Shown here: positions 4,029 to 15,863 of the stretch, in pieces
How positions within the stretch are numbered: position 1 is the stretch's first letter
How the letters are laid out: every line of letters starts with the position of its first letter
Source of the DNA: Chitinivibrionia bacterium
Lineage (GTDB): Bacteria; Fibrobacterota; Chitinivibrionia; Chitinivibrionales; Chitinivibrionaceae
Direction: 5' to 3'
Length of the DNA stretch: 39,224 bases
NCBI GenBank assembly: GCA_009787445.1
Contig: WRFX01000007.1
Location: 1 to 39,224, forward strand
Position numbers and translations under genes: made by a program
The notes under the pieces: model-generated
Told to the model about the DNA's origin: nothing
What the model saw: only the letters and a program-made list of their open reading frames with translations
Databases searched by the model: none

Positions 4029-5243
4029 ATGAAAACCTTATATATAGAATGCAATATGGGAGCGGCGGGAGATATGCTTATGGCGGCTTTGTCGCAACTT
4101 TGCCCCGAGGTTGATAAATTTATAGAAAAAATGAACGAAATCGGTCTTAAAAATACCGTCGTAAATTTCGTAAAAACCGAAAAATGCGGTATATGCGGCG
4201 CAAGTATAGACGTAATTATAAACGGCGAAACGGAAGAAAATTGCAAACGCGAACATCACCGCGAACACGATGAAAAACACGAACATCATCATTCGTCGAT
4301 AGATAATATATTATCGCTTATTCGTTCCTTAAACGTTCCCGAAAACGTAAAAAATAAATCTATCGAAGTATATCGTCTTTTGGCGTCGGCGGAAGCGCAA
4401 GTTCACGGAAAAGAAATTTCGCACATACATTTTCACGAACTCGGAACATTGGACGCGATTTGCGATATTGTCGGCTGTTGTCTTGCGCTCGATATTATTT
4501 CGCCCGAAAAAATAATCGTTTCGCCAATTTGCACGGGCTTTGGCAGCGTTAAATGTCAGCACGGAATACTTCCCGTTCCCGCGCCCGCGACCGCGCACAT
4601 ATTAAAAGAAATTCCGATTTACGGCGGCGATATAAAAGGCGAACTTTGCACTCCCACAGGCGCCGCGTTGTTAAAAACTTTTGCGCATTCGTTTGGTTCT
4701 ATGCCCGTTATGAATATTGAAAAAACGTCTTACGGAATGGGAAAAAAGGATTTTGAACGACTAAATTGCGTTCGCGCGTTTTTGGGAGAAAGCGAAGAAA
4801 AAAGTAGCGAAAACGTTTATGAAATATCGTGCAATTTAGACGATATTACGGCGGAAGAATTGGCGTTTTCGTATGACCTGCTTTTTGAAGCCGGCGCGCT
4901 CGACGTTTTTGTTACGCCGACGGTTATGAAAAAAGGTCGTTTGTCTCAAATATTAACCGCGCTTTTTTACGAAAAAGACAAAACCGCCGTTGCAAAAGCG
5001 ATGCTTATGCATACGACGACACGCGGAGTAAGAATTTCGTCTCACGCTCGAATGACGCTTGAATCGCGCATAGAAGAGGTGCAAACAAAATACGGAAACA
5101 TAAAAATTAAAGTATCGTCGGGATACGGAATTACCAAAATAAAGCCCGAATACGAAAGCGTTGCCGCGGCGGCAAAAAAGTTTGGCGTAACGTTTGCGGA
5201 AGTGCAAAAAATCGCGATGGGGAGTTTAAAAAACGCAAATTAA
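4029..5243 (+). CDS. larC: LarC, nickel insertion in pincer cofactor synthesis
   Basis: 404 residues in a single frame. LarC is the CTP-dependent nickel insertase that completes the nickel-pincer nucleotide. It opens with the family signature (IECNMGAAGDM, residues 6-16) and has a His-rich stretch at 76-88 (eight His or Glu-His repeats) that fits metal binding. In some species larC is split and expressed by programmed frameshifting; here the N- and C-terminal parts are continuous. There is no strong RBS in the six-base gap after larB, so translation is probably coupled. The 3' end overlaps the 3' end of the convergent restriction-modification remnant by 18 bases. Confidence 0.93.
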   Translation: MKTLYIECNMGAAGDMLMAALSQLCPEVDKFIEKMNEIGLKNTVVNFVKTEKCGICGASIDVIINGETEENCKREHHREHDEKHEHHHSSIDNILSLIRSLNVPENVKNKSIEVYRLLASAEAQVHGKEISHIHFHELGTLDAICDIVGCCLALDIISPEKIIVSPICTGFGSVKCQHGILPVPAPATAHILKEIPIYGGDIKGELCTPTGAALLKTFAHSFGSMPVMNIEKTSYGMGKKDFERLNCVRAFLGESEEKSSENVYEISCNLDDITAEELAFSYDLLFEAGALDVFVTPTVMKKGRLSQILTALFYEKDKTAVAKAMLMHTTTRGVRISSHARMTLESRIEEVQTKYGNIKIKVSSGYGITKIKPEYESVAAAAKKFGVTFAEVQKIAMGSLKNAN

Positions 5244-5722
5244 ATCAATTTCTTTCATTATTTCTCCCGTTTCTTTTAGTACTCTAATTATTCTTTGATA
5301 ATGTATAATATCGTCGTATTGTAATTTGCGGTCTTTGCGGTCTTTTAGCCACTTTTGCGCGGGCTGATAACCGCCAATGTAAAAATTATATATCTCGGTA
5401 TCTACGTTTTCAAAATATTGCGATTCGTTTATGTAAATTCTTGATTTTGGAAAGGTCTCACCTTTTTCATAGAACCTAATTTTTTCTACTTTGTCCGTTC
5501 CCGTAATAGGAAAATTTGCAATATCAGGCATCGGCTCCACATTTTCTAACAAATGCAATTTGCGCAGTTTTTCGCCTAATTTTGTCAAATTAAAAAATTG
5601 TTTTGCGTCTTTTGGAAAAGGCGCTCGCGGAAAATCTATTTTTAAAAATTCTTTGTAGCGCATTCTATAAGTTGGCGAATGCAAAACGGCGTAAATGTAG
5701 TCAAAAATTTGTTCTGGGGTAA

Positions 5723-5751
5723 ACCACCCCTGCCCCTCCACAGGAGGGGAA
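5723..5751 (+). repeat. GC-rich palindromic repeat, copy 3 (inverted)
   Basis: 29 bases that are the reverse complement of copies 1 and 2 with one mismatch (CACAGG for CAAAGG). The core is a hairpin of CCCCTCC and GGAGGGG arms. It lies in frame within the C-terminal methylase part and contributes SPPVEGQGW. Confidence 0.85.
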
Positions 5752-6550
5752 TTTTCTATAAACCGCAAACCTATCCGACGAGATATTTTATTTACAATTT
5801 CCTCATTCAAATTCGCAATTTTTTCTGTTTTATTATCTTTTTCTTGATATAAATAAAGCGGGAAAATGTAAGTTGCATCGCTAATGATATGCGTATCTAT
5901 AATATTTTTAGAAATAAATACTCTATTGAAATCTTGACCTTGTGGAATAATACGCGAAGTAATCAAACTCACATTTTCGCCTTTTAAAAAATGTCGCATA
6001 ATATCTCCGCGTGGCATACAATGAAATCCTTTTGAATTACCCGTATAATAGGTAAATTTTGTATCAAATGGTCGATAGTTAATTTTAACGATTTTGCTAA
6101 AATCAGGATTAGATGTTAAATCTTTTTTTGCTCCTTCAACGCTCCAATCTCTGGCATCTTTTCCTAAATCAAATTTTTGTCGAGCCGTTTCAACATCTAA
6201 CTTAATAAAATCGTTTATGGTGTTTTTTTACGGCTTCCACTGTATAATGTACGGTAAAATTATCTCTTGCCGTTACAATTCCAACAGAATTCACGGGAAA
6301 CAATTCTTTCACGGAAAAACCTTGTTCATATTCGCTTTGCAAAGAAAAATCTTTCGGCACAAAAAAGTAATACGGTTCGGTCGGTTTTAACTCTTGCCAA
6401 GGTACAGTTTGCAAAGAATTATTTAGCAAAAAATTATACTTTTCTTCGCGTTTTCCGTATAGGTCAAAATGGAAAACTTGCGCGAGTTGTTTTTTGGGAG
6501 TTTCTTCCTTTGGGAGTTTTTTATTATTCCCTTCTTTTGCCAAAATTTTA

Positions 6551-6579
6551 TTCCCCTCCTTTGGAGGGGCAGGGGTGGT
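6551..6579 (+). repeat. GC-rich palindromic repeat, copy 2
   Basis: 29 bases identical to copy 1, with the hairpin core CCCCTCCTTTGGAGGGG followed by CAGGGGTGGT. It stands out sharply from the AT-rich surroundings and encodes TPAPPKEGN at the start of the central methylase fragment. It is the right member of the direct repeat flanking the PIN cassette on its low-coordinate side. Confidence 0.88.
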
Positions 6580-6596
6580 GTGTTTTTCCATAGTTT

Positions 6597-6773
6597 TCAT
6601 TTTACTTTTTCCCTTTCCCTTACTAACCGATGCGCCTTCTCATTCAATTCGGCAAAATATAAAAGTTCTTCTTCCGATGTCATAGCATTTAATTTTGCGC
6701 TTATTTTGTCTTTTATTGCCCGCGTGCCTTTTATGCAATCCCAGCGAAAAGTATCGTCGTTATTCGTCATCAT
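6597..6773 (-). CDS. 58-residue antitoxin-like protein in PIN cassette
   Basis: A small open frame from tandem ATG codons at 6773-6768 to a TGA at 6599-6597, with GGGGTT upstream as a modest ribosome binding site. The protein begins MMTNNDDTFRWDCIK, is highly charged and probably helical, and ends VREREKVK. It resembles in style the small antitoxins found with PIN toxins (a short helix, then a MTSEEELLYFAELNEKAH segment), but no named family is assigned with certainty. Its stop overlaps the ATG of the central methylase fragment (ATGA), giving possible translational coupling. It is the third gene of the cassette 6597-7501. Confidence 0.62.
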   Translation of the reverse strand: MMTNNDDTFRWDCIKGTRAIKDKISAKLNAMTSEEELLYFAELNEKAHRLVREREKVK

Positions 6774-6807
6774 AAACCCCCATTTCTTTAGGTGAATGAA
6801 TGTTTAA

Positions 6808-7002
6808 TTATTGTGCATAAAAAGGTTTTTTGCCAGTTTTTTTAAGCGTTACAATTTTGTACCCCGCTTTTTCGTACTCTGCCTGTGTATCGCGTAAATA
6901 CTTATGGTATGCTTTCGGGTCGTAATTAAATTCTTTCATAATTGCTTCGCGCTTGCGATACACTTCCGCGACGGTGTCTTCCAGTTCTTTATACTTTCCC
7001 AT
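6808..7002 (-). CDS. 64-residue putative antitoxin of PIN toxin
   Basis: The start at 7002 (MGKYKELEDTVAEVY) is chosen over an upstream in-frame start at 7047 because AGGAAAAGCGAA precedes it and because it gives the usual short overlap (14 bases) with the end of the PIN gene. The product is a charged helical protein (AYHKYLRDTQAEYEKAG) ending KKPFYAQ. It is expected to neutralise the PIN ribonuclease encoded just upstream; this rests on size, overlap and context rather than a confident family match. Confidence 0.65.
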   Translation of the reverse strand: MGKYKELEDTVAEVYRKREAIMKEFNYDPKAYHKYLRDTQAEYEKAGYKIVTLKKTGKKPFYAQ

Positions 7003-7501
7003 TTCGCTTTTCCTTTCTTTTTTCTTCCATAATTTCCATAAACACATCGGGCGTTAATAATTCAGGTAACCATAAGTTGCGATTCCCGTTGAATAATACT
7101 ATTTTTGAATAAGTCGGTTGCCCTAAATGCGTCATATTCCAACTTATCAAAAAATCAATTTCATTCATAACGCATACCGCCAAATGAAAACAATCTGTTT
7201 TTGCTTTTTGCGGAATATTCAAATATTCAAAATATTCTTCCGCAAGTTTTTCCGCATCCGCCGTTACTTGTAAATGCGGTATACCTTTCATTAAGTCGAG
7301 CCGTCGTTTTGCCGCATCTCTGTCGCCTTTTTCGCATTCTTCAATAACATATCGGCTTATATATAAGTCGTATTTGTGCCGCTCGTTTTCCCAAAAAAAT
7401 TTTGCTTCTTCCTGCCTAAAAAGTTCTCTATGCTCTCTGCTCGGTCGCGCTGTTACTAAACTCGGAATAGTGGTTTCTATGTAAACGCTTTTCTTTTTCA
7501 T
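6989..7501 (-). CDS. PIN-domain toxin (VapC-like ribonuclease)
   Basis: 170 residues with the YIETTIPS opening typical of one PIN subfamily. Candidate metal-binding acids are Glu9, Glu54/Glu55 and Asp103 (KTDCFHLAVC), followed by FLISWNMTHL (117-126). The usual first Asp is replaced by Glu, as is common in this subfamily. These proteins are Mg-dependent ribonucleases acting as toxins. The gene starts about 37 bases downstream of a methylase remnant ending at 7538 and is followed by two small antitoxin-like genes. The cassette lies inside the restriction-modification gene between two copies of a duplicated methylase segment. Confidence 0.82.
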   Translation of the reverse strand: MKKKSVYIETTIPSLVTARPSREHRELFRQEEAKFFWENERHKYDLYISRYVIEECEKGDRDAAKRRLDLMKGIPHLQVTADAEKLAEEYFEYLNIPQKAKTDCFHLAVCVMNEIDFLISWNMTHLGQPTYSKIVLFNGNRNLWLPELLTPDVFMEIMEEKRKEKRNGKV

Positions 7502-7537
7502 TTTTTCCCTTTTCGCGTTTTTTTTACAACAAAAATA

Positions 7538-7640
7538 CTATTTGCCAAATAAATCAAAATAAAAAACTTGCGCAAGTTTTTTATTATTCCCTTCCTTTGC
7601 CAAATTTTTATTCCCCTCCTTTGGAGGGGCAGGGGTGGTA
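7538..7640 (-). pseudogene. Duplicated methylase remnant upstream of PIN cassette
   Basis: In one minus-strand frame this reads TTPAPPKEGNK, then LAKEGNNKKLAQVFYF and DLFGK before a TAG at 7540-7538. It is a near copy of the segment that opens the central methylase fragment (about 6467-6590), where the same words lead on into KREEKYNF. The two copies flank the PIN cassette as an imperfect direct repeat of about 100 bases. The remnant is out of frame with the N-terminal methylase fragment, which stops at 7608 inside the repeat. Confidence 0.7.
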
Positions 7641-9584
7641 TGTTTTCTTCACAAAAATATTTATACTCACGCCTTGCATAATATCAAAAATGTTTTCGTC
7701 TTTGCTTCCATCGGGAGAAGTTTCTTTTTTCTTGCTATTGCCGTGCAGGTCAAGAACGTATATTTTATCGAAAGTATTTAACAAACTATAACGCATCCCG
7801 CGAAAAGTCGGATTGTCTAAAAAACCGTTGTTGTTTATAAACGCCAAAATTCCTTCGCCGTTTTTTTCTATAAAATGTTGTCCTAAACGAATAAATTTTA
7901 CATAATCGTCGTTTATCCATTTAGGGTTTTTTTCTTGCAATTTTATTCCCGAATGTTCTTTTTTATATTCGTTTATCAAATTCATAATCCATTTGCCGTT
8001 GTTTTGGCTTTCGCCACTATACGGCGGATTTCCCAAAACTACCATAACGGGAATATCGCGTTTAATTTTATTTGCTTCGTTTGCTTCGTTTGCAAGAAAC
8101 TGCGCAAAAGGGGTTTTTACGTCGGCGTGTTGTTCTTCCAAAGAATTTGTTAAATAAATATTAAAACGCTCGTCGTTTTTAGGCAAAAAACCCGTTTTTG
8201 CAAGTAGATATTCAAGTTTAATATGCGCTATGGTGTAAGAAGACATTAGCAATTCAAAACCGTTCAGTCGCGGAATAAGGTGTTGTTCTACATATCCTTG
8301 CCAAAGTCCGCTTTGTCCGCTAAATTTTTCATATATTTTATTTGCCGCTTCCGCAAGAAAAGTTCCCGTGCCTGTAGCGGGGTCTAATATTTGAACTTTG
8401 TGGACTTCTGTTTCGGTTTGAACGTTTTGGCTTTGTTTGTCTAAAGTTTTGTCGCAAATTTTTATTTTTACTTTCGACGTGTCGGCTAATCCTTGTTGCA
8501 AACTAAATTCGTTTTGCAAAATTTCGTCTATCGCTTTAACTATAAAGTTGACCACAGATTTTGGCGTATAAAATACTCCGCGACTTTTGCGCAAAGCGGG
8601 GTCATAAGTAAATAAAAAATCTTCATAAAAATGAAGCACGGGGTCGGTCTGTTGCGCGGCGCGGACGCTTTCGCCAAAAAAATTTATTTCTGTTTTAATT
8701 TGTTTAGAATTTTCGCCAAAGTTTTTCATTATTGCGCGCATATCAGACGCTCTAAACATTTGGGCAAGGTCGTCTACTATCCAAGCGAGGTGGTCGTCAA
8801 GGTCGCCGCCCGATATATTTTTAAAAAGATTTCGTAAAAAAGGATTGCTTTTTGGAATTAAATTTGTAACTTTTTCTATGCTGAACGTATCGGGGTCTCC
8901 GCTGTGCGAGCAGGCGGCAAACATACCGTAAGTAATGGTTTGCGCGTAAATATCGGCAAATTGTTTTGGTGAAATGTCGGGAATTAAAATTTCTTTTATC
9001 GCGGACAATTGTTGCGATAACGAGCCGTCAACGTCGCTTTTTTTAAGCACGTTTTCAATAACTTGCGACATAAGACGCGCTTTATTTGCCATTATTTCGG
9101 CAAGTTTTGCGGGAGAGTTTATTTTTTGCGGACGCGAGTTGCAAAATTTATTGAGCAAACTTTCAAATTTCGTAAATTGTTGCGAAACGGCAATAACGCC
9201 GTCGTTTGATTTTAATTCGGCTATGCGAATATTTTCTACAAATTCGCCGTATTCGTAAAATTCAAAAACAAGATAATCGGTAATAATTAAATGGTCTAAC
9301 GCTTTTTTGTATCTGTCAAACTGTTCTTTGTAATTTTTGTCGTCTAATTTTTTTCCAATATCTTTTGCTTCTACGTAACTAACGGGAATGTTTTTTCGCA
9401 AAAGCGTTAAATCGGGAGCGCCGCATTCTATATGCCGCGCTTCGTTTATTACAGTGCAATCCGTTAAGTTTTTGAGTAGCGTTTCTAACGCTCCGCGAAA
9501 CGAATGTTCGGTGGTAACGTCTTCTTTATATTTGTCGTTAAGTTGAAAAATATATTCGTTTATTTCATCGGTTTCTTTTGTCAT
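7608..9584 (-). CDS. N-terminal part of restriction-modification enzyme (nuclease + adenine methylase), truncated
   Basis: 658 residues. An N-terminal PD-(D/E)xK nuclease is suggested by Asp58 in GAPDLTLL and Glu72-x-Lys74 in YVEAKDIG. The N6-adenine methylase part shows motif X (RGVFYTPKSVV, 335-345), motif I (DPATGTGTF, 401-409) and the catalytic NPPY (519-522). The chain ends HPCPSKGGE in the palindromic repeat, before the region that normally continues into target recognition; that part lies at 5226-6600. Without the insertion the protein would be about 1,000 residues, similar to single-chain type IIG / type ISP-like enzymes without a helicase. The RBS is weak (AGAAAGA). It starts 36 bases after NfnAB and may be on the same transcript. 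Activity is doubtful because the recognition domain is detached. Confidence 0.82.
   Translation of the reverse strand: MTKETDEINEYIFQLNDKYKEDVTTEHSFRGALETLLKNLTDCTVINEARHIECGAPDLTLLRKNIPVSYVEAKDIGKKLDDKNYKEQFDRYKKALDHLIITDYLVFEFYEYGEFVENIRIAELKSNDGVIAVSQQFTKFESLLNKFCNSRPQKINSPAKLAEIMANKARLMSQVIENVLKKSDVDGSLSQQLSAIKEILIPDISPKQFADIYAQTITYGMFAACSHSGDPDTFSIEKVTNLIPKSNPFLRNLFKNISGGDLDDHLAWIVDDLAQMFRASDMRAIMKNFGENSKQIKTEINFFGESVRAAQQTDPVLHFYEDFLFTYDPALRKSRGVFYTPKSVVNFIVKAIDEILQNEFSLQQGLADTSKVKIKICDKTLDKQSQNVQTETEVHKVQILDPATGTGTFLAEAANKIYEKFSGQSGLWQGYVEQHLIPRLNGFELLMSSYTIAHIKLEYLLAKTGFLPKNDERFNIYLTNSLEEQHADVKTPFAQFLANEANEANKIKRDIPVMVVLGNPPYSGESQNNGKWIMNLINEYKKEHSGIKLQEKNPKWINDDYVKFIRLGQHFIEKNGEGILAFINNNGFLDNPTFRGMRYSLLNTFDKIYVLDLHGNSKKKETSPDGSKDENIFDIMQGVSINIFVKKTYHPCPSKGGE
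7611..7639 (+). repeat. GC-rich palindromic repeat, copy 1
   Basis: Same 29 bases and orientation as copy 2, about 1.06 kb away. The N-terminal methylase fragment reads through it as HPCPSKGG and stops at its edge (stop at 7610-7608), so insertion or duplication of this repeat appears to have ended that reading frame. Short palindromes of this type are dispersed in several bacterial genomes; whether it is mobile here cannot be judged from three copies. Confidence 0.88.
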
Positions 9585-9620
9585 AATATCTTTCTAAAAA
9601 GCCGTAAAACACGCGCAATT

Positions 9621-11864
9621 TTATTCCAACCCAATATCCGTCAAAATCGCTTTTGCGGCTTCTTTTCCCGCTCCCATAGCCATAATAACCGTCGCCGCGC
9701 CGGTTACGATATCGCCGCCGGCATAAACGTTAGGTCTCGAAGTCCGCCCTGCGCCGCTTGTCGCAGTTATCGTTCCGTATTTTGACGTGTCTAAATTTTG
9801 CGTGGTTTGGGCTATTATCGGATTTGGCGACGTGCCGATAGCCACTATAAAAACGTCGCATTCTATTACAAATTCGCTGTTTGGAATTTCCACGGGACTT
9901 CGCCGACCGCTATTATCGGGTTCTCCCAGTTCACATTTTATACATTTTACGCCGCAGACAAAACCGTCTTCGCCGACTATTACTTCTTTTGGGTCGCGCA
10001 AAATATCAAAAATTACGCCCTCTTCCTGCGCGTGAAGTATCTCTTCTTTTCGCGCGGGCATTTCGTCAAAACTTCTGCGATAAACAATGTGCGCTTCGTT
10101 TGCTCCCAGCCGCAAAGCGACGCGAACCGCGTCCATAGCGACGTTTCCGCCGCCCATTACGACCGCTTTTTTGCCTTTTATAATGGGAGTATTGCTGTTT
10201 TCTTTCCAAGCGTGCATTAAGTTAACGCGAGTCAAATATTCGTTTGCCGAATATACGCCGTTCGCGTTTATGCCTTTTATGTTCGGAAATTTCGGCAAGC
10301 CCGCGCCAGAGCCGATAAACGCCGCAGAAAATCCTTCTTTTTCTAATAAATCGTCAATAGTCGCGGTTTTTCCGACGACAAAATTCGTTTCAAATTTTAC
10401 GCCTATCTCTTTTAGTTCGTCAACTTCCATTTGCACGACAGATTTTGGAAGCCGAAATTCTGGAATGCCATAAACAAGCACGCCGCCGACTTCGTGAAGC
10501 GCTTCAAAAACGACTACTTCAACTCCGTGTTTCGCCAAATATCCCGCTGTCGAAAGTCCCGCGGGACCAGAGCCGATAATCGCTACTTTTTTGCCGCTTT
10601 TGGGATAAACGGGATAATTTGGCGTGTGATGTTCGCAATTCCAATCGGCGACAAATCTTTCCAATGCGCCGATAGCCACCGAATCGCTTTTAATTCCCAA
10701 AATACATTTTGCTTCGCACTGCGTTTCCTGCGGACAAACGCGACCGCAAACGGCGGGCAAAGCGTTGGTTTTTTTTATAACGGCAAGCGCGTCTATAAAA
10801 TCGCCTCGCTTTACCAAACGAATAAAATCGGGAATATTTATTCCCACCGGACATCCGTCTACGCAGCGCGGTTTTTTACATTCCAAACATCTTGCCGCTT
10901 CTTTTGTCGCTTCAACTTGTGAAAAACCCAAATTTACTTCTTCAAAATTTCGTCTTCTTTCGTTTGCATCTCGGCATCGCATTTGCGTTCTGTTCGACGT
11001 TTTTGTCGGTTCTTCAACTTCGTTTTCGGTTTTTGCGGAATATAAATTGCAGGTATGCGATTCGTTTTTTTGCGCAATTTTTTCATAACTTCCCAAACGA
11101 TTCAGCAATTCGTCCCAGTTCACCAAACTTGCGTCAAATTCGGGACCGTCCACGCAGGCAAATTTCGTTTCGCCGTTTATGGACACCCGACATCCGCCGC
11201 ACATTCCCGTTCCGTCAATCATTATTGGATTTAGCGAAACAAACGTTTTTATGCCGTTTTCAACCGTAAGTTTCGATGTAAATTTCATCATAATCGGAGG
11301 ACCTACAACTACCGCGCAGTCAAATTTTTTGCCTTCCGCAATAAGTTTTTTTATCACGTCCGCCGCAAATCCTTTTATGCCTGCCGTTCCGTCGTCGGTC
11401 GTTATAAAAACGTTGTCGCAGAACTTGCGAAAATCGTCTTCGAGAATCAACAAATCCTTATTTCTTGCGCCGATTATCGCCGTAACTTCGTTTCCCGCGT
11501 CTTTCATTGCGTTTGCAATAGGATAAAGCGGCGCGGCGCCGAGTCCTCCGCCTATGCACAAAACTTTGCCGAATTTTTCTATATGAGTAGGATTTCCAAG
11601 CGGTCCCGCCAAATCGTTAATATAGTCGTTTTCGTTAAATTCCATAAGTTTTTTAGTCGATTTTCCGACCGCCTGAACTATAATTTCTATCCAGCCCTCT
11701 TTGTCGTTTGCGTCCGCTATTGTAAGCGGAATTCTTTCGCCGTCGGCTGATATGCGAATTATTACAAATTGTCCCGCTTTTCGTTTTTTTGCTATTTTTT
11801 CCGCTTCGAGCCGAAGCCGAAAAATTGTGTCTGATAATTTTTGCTTTTTAAGTATTTTTACCAT
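9621..11864 (-). CDS. nfnAB: Fused NfnAB-type NADH-dependent ferredoxin:NADP oxidoreductase
   Basis: 747 residues joining the two Nfn subunits. The alpha part (1-about 290) has the FAD motif RIPLTIAD (44-51), the NAD-binding GGGLGAAP (105-112) and a [2Fe-2S] site with Cys222, Cys225 and Cys237 plus Asp217, matching the Cys3Asp coordination known for NfnA. The beta part is GltD-like: two 4Fe-4S motifs (Cys326/329/334/338 and Cys373/377/383/387), FAD-binding GSGPAG (431-436), NADPH-binding GGGNVA (571-576) with YRRS (595-598), and a C-terminal GGD. Nfn enzymes couple NADH, NADPH and ferredoxin by electron bifurcation in anaerobes. Databases often call the fusion a dihydroorotate dehydrogenase subunit/glutamate synthase. 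Its ATG overlaps the stop of the upstream chemoreceptor gene (ATGGTAA), implying coupled translation. Confidence 0.9.
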
Positions 11865-13750
11865 TTATCGTCGTCTTCCGATTTATACGCGATTGCCGCA
11901 ATACTGCCGCTATTTCGCGGTTGAGGTTGAGATTTAATTTTAATATTTGTGGTCATTTTGGTCGCCGATTTTGCCATTTTTGCTTCTTCTCCGTTAATTA
12001 CGCCGACCAAATCGTTTACTAAATTGTCTATCGAGACAACTTGCGAATTTAATTCTTGCGAACTTGCCGCCAATTCTTCGCTTGAACTTGCGTTGGAATT
12101 TGTTATCAAATTCATTTTTCCTATAGACGCATTTACCTGCGAAACGCCTCTTGTCTGTTCTTCTGTGGCTATAGAAATATCCGAAACTATGGCGTTTATT
12201 TCCAAAGATTTTTCCGCGACTTTGTCTATTATTTTAGCCGTTTCTTCGGTTAATTCCACGCCTGTTTGCGATTTTTTTTGCGACATTTCAATTAAATCCG
12301 CAGTTTTTTTCGCGCTTTCCGCGCTTCTCTGCGCCAAATTTCTAACTTCTTCTGCGACGACGGCAAATCCTTTGCCCGCTTCTCCCGCCCGAGCCGCTTC
12401 AACAGCCGCGTTAAGCGCGAGTAAATTTGTTTGGAACGCAATTTCGTCTATATCTTTAAGGATTTTCCCCGTTTCGTTGCTCGATTGTCTAATTTCGGCG
12501 ACCGCTTCCTGCAATTTATGCATAGACGTTTTGCCCGCGTTTGTTTCTTCTCCCTGTTCTTTTACCAAATTGCTCGCGTTTTTGGCGTTGTCGGCGGTTT
12601 GTTTTGTCATAGACGTAATTTCGTTAAGCGACGAAGATATTTCCTGCAAACTGCTCGACTGTTCCGTCGCTCCGCCCGCTACGGATTCCGCCGCGTTAGA
12701 AATTTCCCGCGACGCTCCCGAAACTTCCTGCGAACTCGACGAAAGTCCGTCTATAATTTCGGTTATCGGTTTTACGGTCGACCTCGTAACAATGGAACTC
12801 AAAAGAATGCCGAAAATTATCGCAAAAATAAGTCCGCTCGTTATTAAAATTGCGCCGACTTTCAACTCGCCCATAGAGTCGTTAGACAATTTGGTTATTG
12901 CGCCGATTGCGGTTTTTTTCGCGTCGTCAACCGATTTTTTGAGTTGATTTCTCGCTTCTTCGCATTTTGGATTTATGTCGTATCTCATTTGAACTAAAAA
13001 TTCTCCCAACTGTTTCATAGATTGTTCGTAACTGTTGTAATCGGAAAAATATTCGGTAAATAATTTTTTCTGCGCGCCTTCCAAAGAAATTTTTTCGAGT
13101 TCGTTCAACGCTCCTAATCCGTGCGCTATAAAATTGTAAGCGTTTGAAAAACCTACGGTATCGACGCCAATTCGCGCTTTGTTAGCCGCGTTAATGGCTA
13201 AAATCGCGTCCAATTCCAAAATAAAAACGAGTTCTCTTTCGTGCGAAGCGGAATGAAAAAGTTCTCTTAATTTGCTTCCGTTTTCTATAATTTTATGTTC
13301 CAAATTGTTTAATTTGTTGGTTTGTTCCAAAATTTTGTCGCTTACTTCTTTTTGTTTGTTGCGAATTGCGGTATATGCGCGAAACGCCGTATCGACGTTC
13401 ATAATTATTCCCGGGCTTTTTACCAAATGCGGCGCGCTCATTACAAATTCTTTTGTCGCCGTCAGTCCGGAATCCAAATACGCGGCGCCTTTTTGCGCGT
13501 TTTCGTAATATTTTTGGTCAAGCGTAACTTCGTACAAATGCGAATTGATAACAATACTGTCGGATATCCCAAGCGACAAAGTATATGCGACGTCCACAAT
13601 CGGAACAAGTTCTTCTGAAATTACCGTTGCCCTGACGACTGCCGGTACCAACCATTTTCCTACGCTTACTGCGCCGGCAACCGCCATTAAGGCAAGCAAA
13701 AATCCCGCGAGCATTTTAATTTTTGCGCTTAGTTTTAGTTTTTTTAACAT
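11858..13750 (-). CDS. MCP1, divergent chemoreceptor coupled to NfnAB
   Basis: 630 residues from the ATG at 13750, chosen because it gives the [11 protein letters not shown] start shared by the array; a GTG nine bases upstream is possible but too close to the AGGAG. Transmembrane helices are at about 12-32 and 298-321, with a helical periplasmic domain between them that differs most from the other receptors ([10 protein letters not shown] replaces the array's SSSTxDRD motif). The signalling hairpin is typical ([19 protein letters not shown]). The N-side methylation site reads [10 protein letters not shown], with Gln-Glu instead of Glu-Glu. The tail is short and ends SEDDDKW, lacking the terminal pentapeptide; its stop lies in the NfnAB start. 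Confidence 0.9.
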
Positions 13751-13865
13751 TTTCTGCACCCACTCCTAACAATAAAAATGTAAATAAGATTTTTAAATTC
13801 GCGTAAAAATACTATATTGCGCTAAATTAAAACGAATAAAAAACAACAAAAGCAATAAAAAACAA

Positions 13866-13893
13866 GGAAGTTAAAACATTTGTCTTAACTTCC
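13866..13893 (-). terminator. Intrinsic terminator of MCP2
   Basis: A perfect 9-base stem (GGAAGTTAA / TTAACTTCC) with a 10-base loop, followed on the minus strand by TTGTTTTTTATT. It lies about 40 bases after the MCP2 stop. Confidence 0.85.
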
Positions 13894-13931
13894 CGTTCGG
13901 AAATTATTAAAAAAAGGGGGTTAATAATCGC

Positions 13932-15863
13932 CTAATTATTATCGTCGTTAAAAGAAATCATTTTTCCCGTTTTATGTACATCTTGAATATTGGAAGTTAC
14001 GTTTGCGTATCTTCCCGTAACGCTTCTTCGCGTATTTCCGCTTTGTTGCAAACCTCTTTCTCTTTGCGCTTTTGCCTCCGCTCCCGCGACGACAGTTACC
14101 AAATCGCCCACCAAATCGTTAATTGAAAGCGCCTGCGAACTTAACTCTTCGCTACTTGCCGCCAACTCTTCGCTCTGACTTGCGTTACTCTGCGTTACTT
14201 GGTCTAAACTTCCTATCGCCGCGTTTACCTGCGACACGCCGTGCGCCTGTTCGTCTGCGGCTTTGGTAATTTCGTCGACTATCGCTTCTATTTTTGCCGA
14301 CGATTCGGCTATTTTTTCTATGGATTGCGCCGTTTCTTCCGCCAAAGTTACGCCTTTTTCGCTACTTTTTTGCGACGCTTGAATTAAATCCGCAGTTTTC
14401 TTTGCAGCCGCCGCGCTTCTTTGCGCCAAATTTCTAACTTCTTCGGCGACAACCGCAAATCCTTTGCCCGCTTCTCCCGCCCGAGCCGCTTCAACAGCCG
14501 CATTTAACGCAAGTAAGTTTGTTTGAAACGCAATTTCGTCGATGTCTTTAAGAATTTTTGCAGTATCGTCGCCCGATTGTTTTATATCGTTTACCGCAGA
14601 AAGCAAACTTCCCATCGCTTCTTTGCTCGCTTTGGATTTATCTACGCTGTCTTTTACCAATCCTTCCGCGTTTCTGGCGTTTTCGGCGGTTTGTTGAGTC
14701 ATAGAAGTTATTTCGTTAAGCGACGCGGAAATTTCCTCCAAACTGCTTGCCTGCTGACTTGCGCCGCTCGCCATAGATTGCGACGCCTTCGATATTTCTC
14801 CCGACGCGCCGGTTATCTGATTTGAACCCGAAGAAAGTTCGTCTATGGTTCTCGTTATCGGACGCACAATAGAATTTATAATGAAAACGCTCATTATTAT
14901 TCCCAAAACGATTGCCGCAATTAACAAGATTATCATAATAAGCGAACTTGCGTTCATCTGCACGGCGGTTTCCATTGCCAAGCCCGAATTTCTATATACA
15001 AGCGTATCCATCATATCGGTAACGTCTTGGCTGAAAAGTTCTACCAAATGCAACTGTCTTGCATTCATTTCGTTTCGCGTCTGTTGCGTTTTTGAAAATT
15101 TGTCGAAAGCGTCGAAATATGCGTTTATATCGTTAATTATTATGTGAAGTTCCCGCTTAAAATCGTCGGAAAGCGTTTTGGATTCTGCAAAATGTTCTGC
15201 AAATTCCGCAACTTTTGTCCCTGTTTCGACTATCGCGGCGGCTCCCGACGTATCTATGCTTTGAAGAAATTTGTTAAGTTGTACGCGCGAATCCATTAAA
15301 TAATAAATTACGTCCAAAATGTCGTCTCTGTCCTGCGAACTCGACGTTCCGAGTTGTTTGTCTCTTCCATCTATCATTTTTGCCCGTAACGCCATTAGTC
15401 CGTCCGCAACTTTTATTCCCAGAGCGCTTATTTGGACTTTGTATTCGTTTTGTTGAAATCCGAGTTCGAATATTGAATCGCAAATCGCTATTAAGTCCTT
15501 TACTTCCGGTTGGATTTTTGCTATGGAGATAGGAAATTGTTTAAGTCCCGTTGCCGTTTTTGTTAGTTCTTGCGCTCGAACGATTTCTTGTCTAAGCGTA
15601 TCGAGCCACATTCTTGCCGCTTGCGCGTCGGAGGGGTCGGACCTGTACGTAAACGTGCGAATTGCCGTGCGAAAGTTGCCTTTTGAATCCAAAATTTCGC
15701 TGCCGGACCTTACGGCAGGAAGCACTTCTTTGGCAGTATATGCGGAACTTGCCCGAGCCGAAAACATATTTATCACGCCGACTATTCCCACAATAGCCAT
15801 AAAGATAAACAAAACCGCCGCGAGCGCCGCAATTTTCGCGCTCAATTTTAATTTGTTAAACAT
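13932..15863 (-). CDS. MCP2, chemoreceptor that lost its tail pentapeptide
   Basis: 643 residues with RBS AAAGGAA. Transmembrane helix 1 spans about 11-32, the periplasmic domain 33-306 and helix 2 about 307-328. The domain contains [11 protein letters not shown], a variant of the array's SSSTxDRD motif. The methylation sites are [10 protein letters not shown] (Glu376/Glu377) and [10 protein letters not shown]; the hairpin tip is near Arg461. The tail (AQRERG onward) ends ISFNDDNN, where related receptors continue to x-F-G-x-Y. One base inserted near the stop would restore NNLGDY, and GDY plus a stop codon are still present out of frame at 13921-13932. The receptor therefore seems to have lost its CheR/CheB tether recently. 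Confidence 0.92.

Follow-up and report, generated by a model that had tools for sequence, protein, structure and literature searches.

The locus described here bears on the movement of small addiction modules that lack a transposase: how did a PIN toxin–antitoxin cassette come to stand inside a restriction-modification gene, between two copies of a segment of that gene? The window (the whole 39,224-nucleotide stretch of DNA that was analysed) carries a type IIG gene, composed of nuclease, methylase and Type_ISP_C specificity domain, that is split at the linker 5′ of the specificity domain. The parts of the interrupted gene are as follows.

7608–9584, reverse strand: 5′ part of the type IIG gene, nuclease and N6-adenine methylase, 658 amino acids (N6_Mtase and Eco57I domains)
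6202–6600, reverse strand: resumed open reading frame, 132 amino acids, starting at a new ATG that overlaps the antitoxin-B stop; frameshift near 6220
5226–6017, reverse strand: Type_ISP_C specificity domain in a second frame, 263 amino acids from its first ATG (Type_ISP_C, 2.2e-66)

The family descent of the gene is clear, the 5′ part being a relative of LlaBIII that matches the PADLOC REase_MTase_IIG model at 2.4e-211. It resembles the type IIG/ISP enzymes LlaBIII and LlaGI in combining a nuclease-methylase with a Type_ISP_C specificity domain, but is shorter than LlaBIII (1578 residues) and, being interrupted and frameshifted, does not form one intact chain. As a preliminary description of this DNA had stated, the methylase frame ends at 7608, and the gene resumes past the cassette at a new ATG coupled to the last cassette gene through an ATGA overlap with the antitoxin stop. 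The methylase is severed from the Type_ISP_C domain, and the gene does not resume as a single reading frame. After 132 amino acids, ahead of most of the specificity domain, the frame is lost near 6220 in a stretch of seven T (seven A in the coding strand), and the specificity domain lies in another frame that is open from about 6230, upstream of its first ATG at 6017. Because of this frameshift an intact C-terminal protein, which the same description had thought might still be made, is unlikely. With its specificity domain cut off from nuclease and methylase by the insertion, the enzyme is very probably inactive; the gene halves are decaying by frameshifts.

The 952-bp insert between the linker copies contains three small genes and a toxin remnant.

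6989–7501, reverse strand: PIN-A toxin gene, 170 amino acids (PIN, 7.3e-4, below Pfam's curated cut-off)
6808–7002, reverse strand: antitoxin-A candidate, 64 amino acids, overlapping the PIN stop (follows PIN-A in sister cassettes)
6760–6798, reverse strand: remnant of a PIN-B toxin C terminus, last 12 residues (HSPKEMGVYDDE and stop)
6597–6773, reverse strand: antitoxin-B candidate, 58 amino acids, an orphan whose own toxin is missing here (relatives follow PIN-B in loci L088, L090 and L092)

The cassette is thus a mosaic of PIN-A, antitoxin-A, a 12-residue remnant of PIN-B and antitoxin-B. The three small genes of the preliminary description stand, with the third corrected to a second antitoxin preceded by the PIN-B remnant. 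As in PIN-domain (VapC-like) type II modules, the PIN gene is followed by a small overlapping gene, here of 64 amino acids and conserved in sister cassettes; unlike in typical modules of this kind, the PIN score of the predicted toxin falls below Pfam's curated cut-off and an orphan antitoxin and a toxin remnant are attached. By inference from its families the cassette would be a type II addiction module, in which a PIN RNase toxin is held by the protein encoded just downstream, and the orphan antitoxin-B could serve to neutralise PIN-B toxins from other loci of the genome. Ten further close copies of the PIN-A family are present in the genome. Sequence searches for a PDB relative of the toxin gave no meaningful match, and an Rfam search of window positions 5000–10000 for an RNA element returned none.

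On either side of the cassette lies a copy of the linker segment.

7541–7648, reverse strand: upstream copy of the target segment, comprising the linker element and KLAQVFYFDLFGK, then TAG; cassette-side edge uncertain by about 15 bases
6451–6588, reverse strand: downstream copy of the target segment, running on into the remainder of the gene
7558–7585, no strand assigned: perfect 28-base palindrome AATAAAAAACTTGCGCAAGTTTTTTATT, upstream of the PIN gene, in the upstream copy only (self-match)

The cassette therefore lies between two segment copies, and the repeat of about 100 bases reported earlier is real. The copies span 108 bp (upstream) and 138 bp (downstream); positions 6515–6586 and 7575–7646 match over 72 nt at 96% identity (E about 1e-27), and the repeat extends for a further 40 nt at 78% identity on the side encoding KLAQVFxFDL. 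Read one base off the methylase frame, the upstream copy codes for HTTPAPPKEGNKNLAKEGNNKKLAQVFYFDLFGK followed by TAG. In the genome the full duplicated segment occurs in two places only, both flanking the cassette. Since both linker copies include the conserved KLAQVFxFDL codons, the duplicated DNA is target DNA.

The preliminary description had called for an uninterrupted orthologue; twelve uninterrupted relatives were found. In all twelve relatives (1,007–1,141 amino acids) the gene is continuous, with the linker present once and no cassette; the methylase part ends at the equivalent of window position 7647 and the sequence continues from about 6495. An allele of this locus without the cassette was not found in the same-genus genome, which lacks the restriction gene; two other sites that are occupied here (uvrA and an mlaD-like gene) are empty there.

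The continuity of the gene in relatives, the target-derived flanks and the occurrence of similar sister cassettes at unrelated targets (below) together make it probable, on sequence grounds, that a toxin–antitoxin module inserted in the type IIG linker and that the event left roughly 100 bases of the gene in duplicate, one copy to either side of the cassette; duplication on integration was one of the routes raised in the preliminary description. The divergence of the two copies is nonetheless uneven (3 of 72 versus 9 of 40 differences, p = 0.008), which is not predicted by a single recent duplication. Copies differing by several percent, and spread between strains, would be accounted for by homologous recombination with a linear or circular DNA that carried the cassette beside a fragment of the same target, long direct repeats being exactly the product of a single-crossover integration. 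We regard this as unlikely here, because it explains the transfer of an occupied site but not the first arrival at a new target, and for each site it would call for a donor that carries the matching target fragment. The 9 differences in 40 nt also resemble the divergence of paralogues, as expected had two tandem restriction genes flanked the module until a deletion removed the 3′ portion of the leading gene together with the 5′ portion of the one that followed. This gene type does occur in tandem elsewhere (three copies in locus L008), but this genome has a single gene of the type, both breakpoints would have to fall at a nearly identical gene position with an overlap of only about 100 bp, and the same scar at the unrelated targets of sister cassettes would be left unexplained; such a deletion is accordingly quite improbable.

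A 30-base palindromic element, ATTCCCCTCCTTTGGAGGGGCAGGGGTGGT, is present in both linker copies, in agreement with the shared palindrome noted earlier, and a third, inverted copy lies in the same gene.

7610–7639, no strand assigned: palindromic element, upstream copy
6550–6579, no strand assigned: palindromic element, downstream copy
5723–5752, no strand assigned: third palindromic element, inverted and in frame in the specificity domain (SPPVEGQGW)

Its presence in both flanking copies had suggested that recombination between copies of the element brought the cassette. This is now scarcely credible, and the palindrome is rejected as an integration site: the duplicate runs past the element into gene codons, the other bracketing repeats lack it, and among its six occurrences genome-wide, three of them in the restriction gene region, no other cassette adjoins one, the nearest lying 2.9 kb away on contig C78. 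The linker of other lineages holds other repeat-like peptides at the same location, so the element was most likely already resident in the linker before the insertion. Rickettsia palindromic elements are short palindromic repeats that are read in frame inside protein genes. The element here is likewise in frame in a protein gene, twice in the one gene, but has only six copies in this genome, and we treat the resemblance as a lead.

Further evidence for insertion with target duplication comes from the other PIN loci of the genome. Sister cassettes are bracketed by local repeats of 167 bp (L079), 55 bp (L082), 43 bp (L088), 95 bp (L084) and 102 bp (L090), the range at PIN loci in this genome being 43–167 bp. 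Such repeats bracket 6 of 21 PIN loci versus 3 of 197 control open reading frames (p = 2.7e-5), or 4 of 19 without the weak L087 pair (p = 0.0013), in a locus set picked after the pattern was first noticed, and are absent from the remaining 15 of the 21. The assembly is a draft, with one redundant stretch of 7 kb shared by contigs C9 and C30. The L150 repeat, with several copies within its locus, was not counted, and the repeat pairs of the G001 stretches, many of them short and recurring, were not taken as evidence. Each bracketing repeat in the genome is different, and nearly all are found only twice (genome-wide for L079, within 626 kb for most others), on which ground a dispersed repeat as the carrier of the cassette is rejected. 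The L146/L159 repeat has five matches, four of them on its own contig, which fits serial insertion. Outside this genome, within the phylum, the bracketing repeats derive from the ends of flagellin, UPF0175-like and retropepsin-like genes and from tRNA-Pro.

These data also bear on whether the cassette is itself a unit with repeated ends, the element and its flanks being mobile repeat DNA of that unit and not target DNA. Two copies do flank the cassette, and in Microcystis aeruginosa a ParE/ParD-like pair beside MaOC1 lies between two direct repeats of 152 bp that have inverted repeats inside them (PMC7935541). For this genome the idea is very improbable and already contradicted: the bracketing repeats all differ, nearly all occur just twice, and the segment encodes part of a restriction gene here and other gene parts or a tRNA elsewhere. 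The Microcystis locus is similar in placing a toxin–antitoxin pair between long direct repeats that hold a shorter inverted repeat, but its repeats are identical (96% and 78% identity here) and its toxin family differs; the relevant passages of that account describe one locus and do not identify the repeats as duplicated target (PMC7935541).

Insertion with long target duplication is known for Helicobacter pylori restriction-modification genes (Nobusato et al. 2000; Furuta et al. 2010; as related in PMC1643837, PMC3874152 and PMC3031569), and the present locus matches it. There too a selfish or addiction-type gene is inserted without a transposase, and the local direct duplication is roughly 100 bp long, with variation (108 and 138 bp here, 43–167 bp at the other loci). 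In contrast to H. pylori, the inserted unit here is a toxin–antitoxin module, with a restriction gene as its victim, and the evidence comes from relatives and sister cassettes instead of two strains compared at the same locus.

The open reading frames of the insert include no transposase gene, and nine of ten events show no terminal inverted repeats beyond chance; a classical transposon is therefore rejected. We infer that a module without either feature would enter the restriction gene linker by one-ended illegitimate or replicative recombination: a strand would cross to cassette DNA and later rejoin the target upstream of its departure point, generating a duplication of variable length. Such insertion mostly spares neighbouring genes and promoters, the restriction gene being an exception, which would account for the survival of the scars.

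Cassettes related to this one bear the same scar, both here and in other genomes, which suggests that these transposase-less modules move by insertion with long target duplications. More tentatively, and with the balance of probability still against it, such toxin–antitoxin modules may be gene-sized mobile units of a single class, inserting repeatedly by a shared mechanism with 40–170-bp target duplications. They would often do so at gene ends and promoters, where neighbours survive and a duplicated host promoter can come to lie ahead of the toxin gene, and serial insertion at one site would build arrays (L159, L079). With about ten close module copies, several still scarred, this genome offers many events with comparable edges. 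One selfish defence module has broken another here; at promoters, a flagellin gene and a tRNA, the same kind of scar shows how modules of this sort can enter a genome and yet spare the neighbours.

The preliminary description of a PIN toxin–antitoxin cassette lying in a restriction–modification gene between duplicated segments is confirmed by the open reading frames, the two copies and the relatives of the gene. The type IIG gene is spread over three open reading frames, and a 952-bp cassette of three genes separates the first two.

9584-7608, minus strand, methylase open reading frame, 658 aa
7501-6989, minus strand, PIN gene
7002-6808, minus strand, small gene (antitoxin-A)
6773-6597, minus strand, small gene (58-aa antitoxin-B relative)
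6600-6202, minus strand, resumed open reading frame, 132 aa
6017-5226, minus strand, further open reading frame, 263 aa

The 5′ part of the gene carries N6_Mtase and Eco57I and the last part Type_ISP_C (2.2e-66; Pfam), all three pieces match REase_MTase_IIG (2.4e-211, 1.2e-35 and 8e-61; PADLOC), and PDB relatives include LlaBIII and LlaGI. Uninterrupted relatives (1007-1141 aa) align to the window as far as 7647 and again from about 6495 with few residues between (an example of the intact linker is INIFVKTGKKKTGELAQVFHHDLYGKRQTKYDFL), which places the insertion in the linker between methylase core and specificity domain. The reading frame shifts near 7648 and again near 6220, each time at a run of A, which leaves no complete protein and makes it unlikely that the resumed part still yields the suggested C-terminal protein in functional form; either shift may be genuine or an error of the draft assembly. 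This type of gene is present in three tandem copies in one Cytophagales genome (L008, 4490-11277). At 11858-38988 the window also contains numerous direct repeats, diverged and 0.8-2.1 kb long, the first being tandem methyl-accepting chemotaxis genes (11858-15863), which suggest that a chemoreceptor paralogue array fills much of the remaining sequence.

The segment following the methylase (7541-7648, the upstream copy) recurs where the gene resumes (6451-6588, the downstream copy), with 3 differences in 72 nt and 9 in a further 40 nt, and a whole-genome search finds the full segment at these two places only. The upstream copy codes for HTTPAPPKEGNKNLAKEGNNKKLAQVFYFDLFGK and then TAG, one base out of the methylase frame; the downstream copy gives almost that peptide, longer by about ten residues, and runs on into the remainder of the gene. 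Conserved target codons are thus part of the duplicated DNA. The last few codons of the upstream copy (FGK) may be the cassette's own promoter instead of target, since TTTGGCAAATAGTATTTTT resembles the DNA preceding sister cassettes and preceding the G001 uvrA gene, so the copy's cassette-side end is placed only to within about 15 bases. Such uneven divergence between the two parts is not what a single recent duplication would give; seven of the nine differences in the short part have C in the downstream copy, and six of these seven have T in the upstream copy.

Each copy has a 30-base palindromic element in its linker, and the element recurs at 5723-5752 in inverted orientation, where it is read in frame (SPPVEGQGW). 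Recombination at this palindrome had been proposed as the entry route, and we reject it because the element has six genomic occurrences with up to three mismatches, including one on contig C78 and weaker ones on C28 and C57, and the remaining occurrences do not border a cassette. The same linker in relatives from other lineages holds different repeat-like peptides (SPLAGEVAFAEGGGG in L035 and VILSEARKGEVEGF in L047), and the gene most likely already carried the element when the cassette came in. Such peptides (SPLAGEV..., VILSEAR..., VKCKVES... and HTTPAPPKEGN) occur in several unrelated lineages (L035 at about 7792-7890 and 9796-9900, L047, L014 and the window at 7610-7639), as though this enzyme family tolerated the arrival of small palindromic repeats in its linker. 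A perfect 28-base palindrome just upstream of the PIN gene (7558-7585), present in the upstream copy and absent from the downstream copy, may be an operator or terminator acquired since the duplication.

The PIN gene belongs to a family, PIN-A, with ten further genomic copies at E < 1e-50 (49-83% identity), two of which contain an internal stop codon, and further, more distant members; no PIN-A copy is present in the same-genus genome. Antitoxin-A is followed by 12 residues, HSPKEMGVYDDE, that match the C-terminus of a second family, PIN-B, and then by the 58-aa relative of the antitoxin that elsewhere follows PIN-B. The cassette is a mosaic in which most of toxin B has gone and the candidate antitoxin-B is orphaned.

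Comparable scars are present elsewhere in this genome and in other genomes of the phylum.

Modules and the repeats that bracket them (first five loci, window's own genome; last four, other genomes of the phylum)
L079: PIN-A; 167 bp, 94%, taking in the HepT gene end and the next gene's promoter region
L082: PIN-A; 55 bp, taking in the end of a DtxR-like gene
L088: PIN-B; 43 bp
L084: DUF3990/DUF3791 module; 95 bp, 97%, a duplicate of the DNA upstream of uvrA
L090: weakly Rpn-like gene; two 102-bp copies
L161: flagellin C-terminus (NQIMVQSATSMLAQ...LLGLLG)
L159 (genome G071): C-terminus of a gene we take to be UPF0175-like, in four partial copies (382-497, 4949-5003, 5317-5430, 6119-6206)
L057: end of a presumably retropepsin-like gene
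L162: part of tRNA-Pro and what looks like its terminator

The L079 repeat has exactly two occurrences genome-wide, and most of the others have exactly two in the 626 kb searched. The uvrA and mlaD-like genes of the same-genus genome have no module in front. Among the PIN loci, 6 of 21 have bracketing repeats, against 3 of 197 control open reading frames (p=2.7e-5); leaving out the weak L087 pair, the figure is 4 of 19 (p=0.0013). These p values are indicative, as the pattern had already been noticed when the PIN set was taken up. In L159 different cassettes keep the four pieces of a single gene end apart, an arrangement suggestive of serial insertion into one site. In L079 a nucleotidyltransferase/HepT pair is followed by a PIN-A pair, and one promoter-like region recurs in front of each (227-267, 919-1084, 1838-2004), apparently through nested insertions. 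At L090 (11210-12359) and L096 (5298-9710), too, unique direct repeats of 95-174 bp enclose weakly Rpn-like genes and other modules. The end of contig C9 (L089) and contig C30 (L090) share 6,992 bp that are 100% identical in reverse orientation, probably through assembly redundancy or overlap.

With the segment at two places genome-wide, the linker uninterrupted in relatives and the same scar elsewhere, insertion of the module with duplication of its target, one of the two routes first proposed, is well supported. The inserts are 679-1195 bp long; nine of the ten insertion events examined have no terminal inverted repeats beyond chance, and the window insert carries no recombination enzyme of its own. 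From the variable length of the duplications, their lack of fixed edges and the existence of mosaics, we infer that template switching, illegitimate recombination or a similar one-ended process would insert the module. In L079, L084 and probably L088, the DNA upstream of the following gene is part of the duplicate, so that module and neighbour each keep one such region; in L079 only 14 bases separate the start of the insert from the toxin's start codon. The window event, by contrast, broke its target gene.

Helicobacter pylori restriction–modification genes are known to insert with target duplications that are long, around 100 bp, and differ in length (PMC1643837, PMC3874152, PMC3031569). The kind of event is alike, but there restriction–modification genes insert, whereas here the mobile unit is a toxin–antitoxin module and the restriction gene its target. 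In Microcystis, 152-bp repeats fence a toxin–antitoxin pair (PMC7935541). A limited search of open-licence literature found no paper on insertion with target duplication as a recurrent behaviour of toxin–antitoxin modules.
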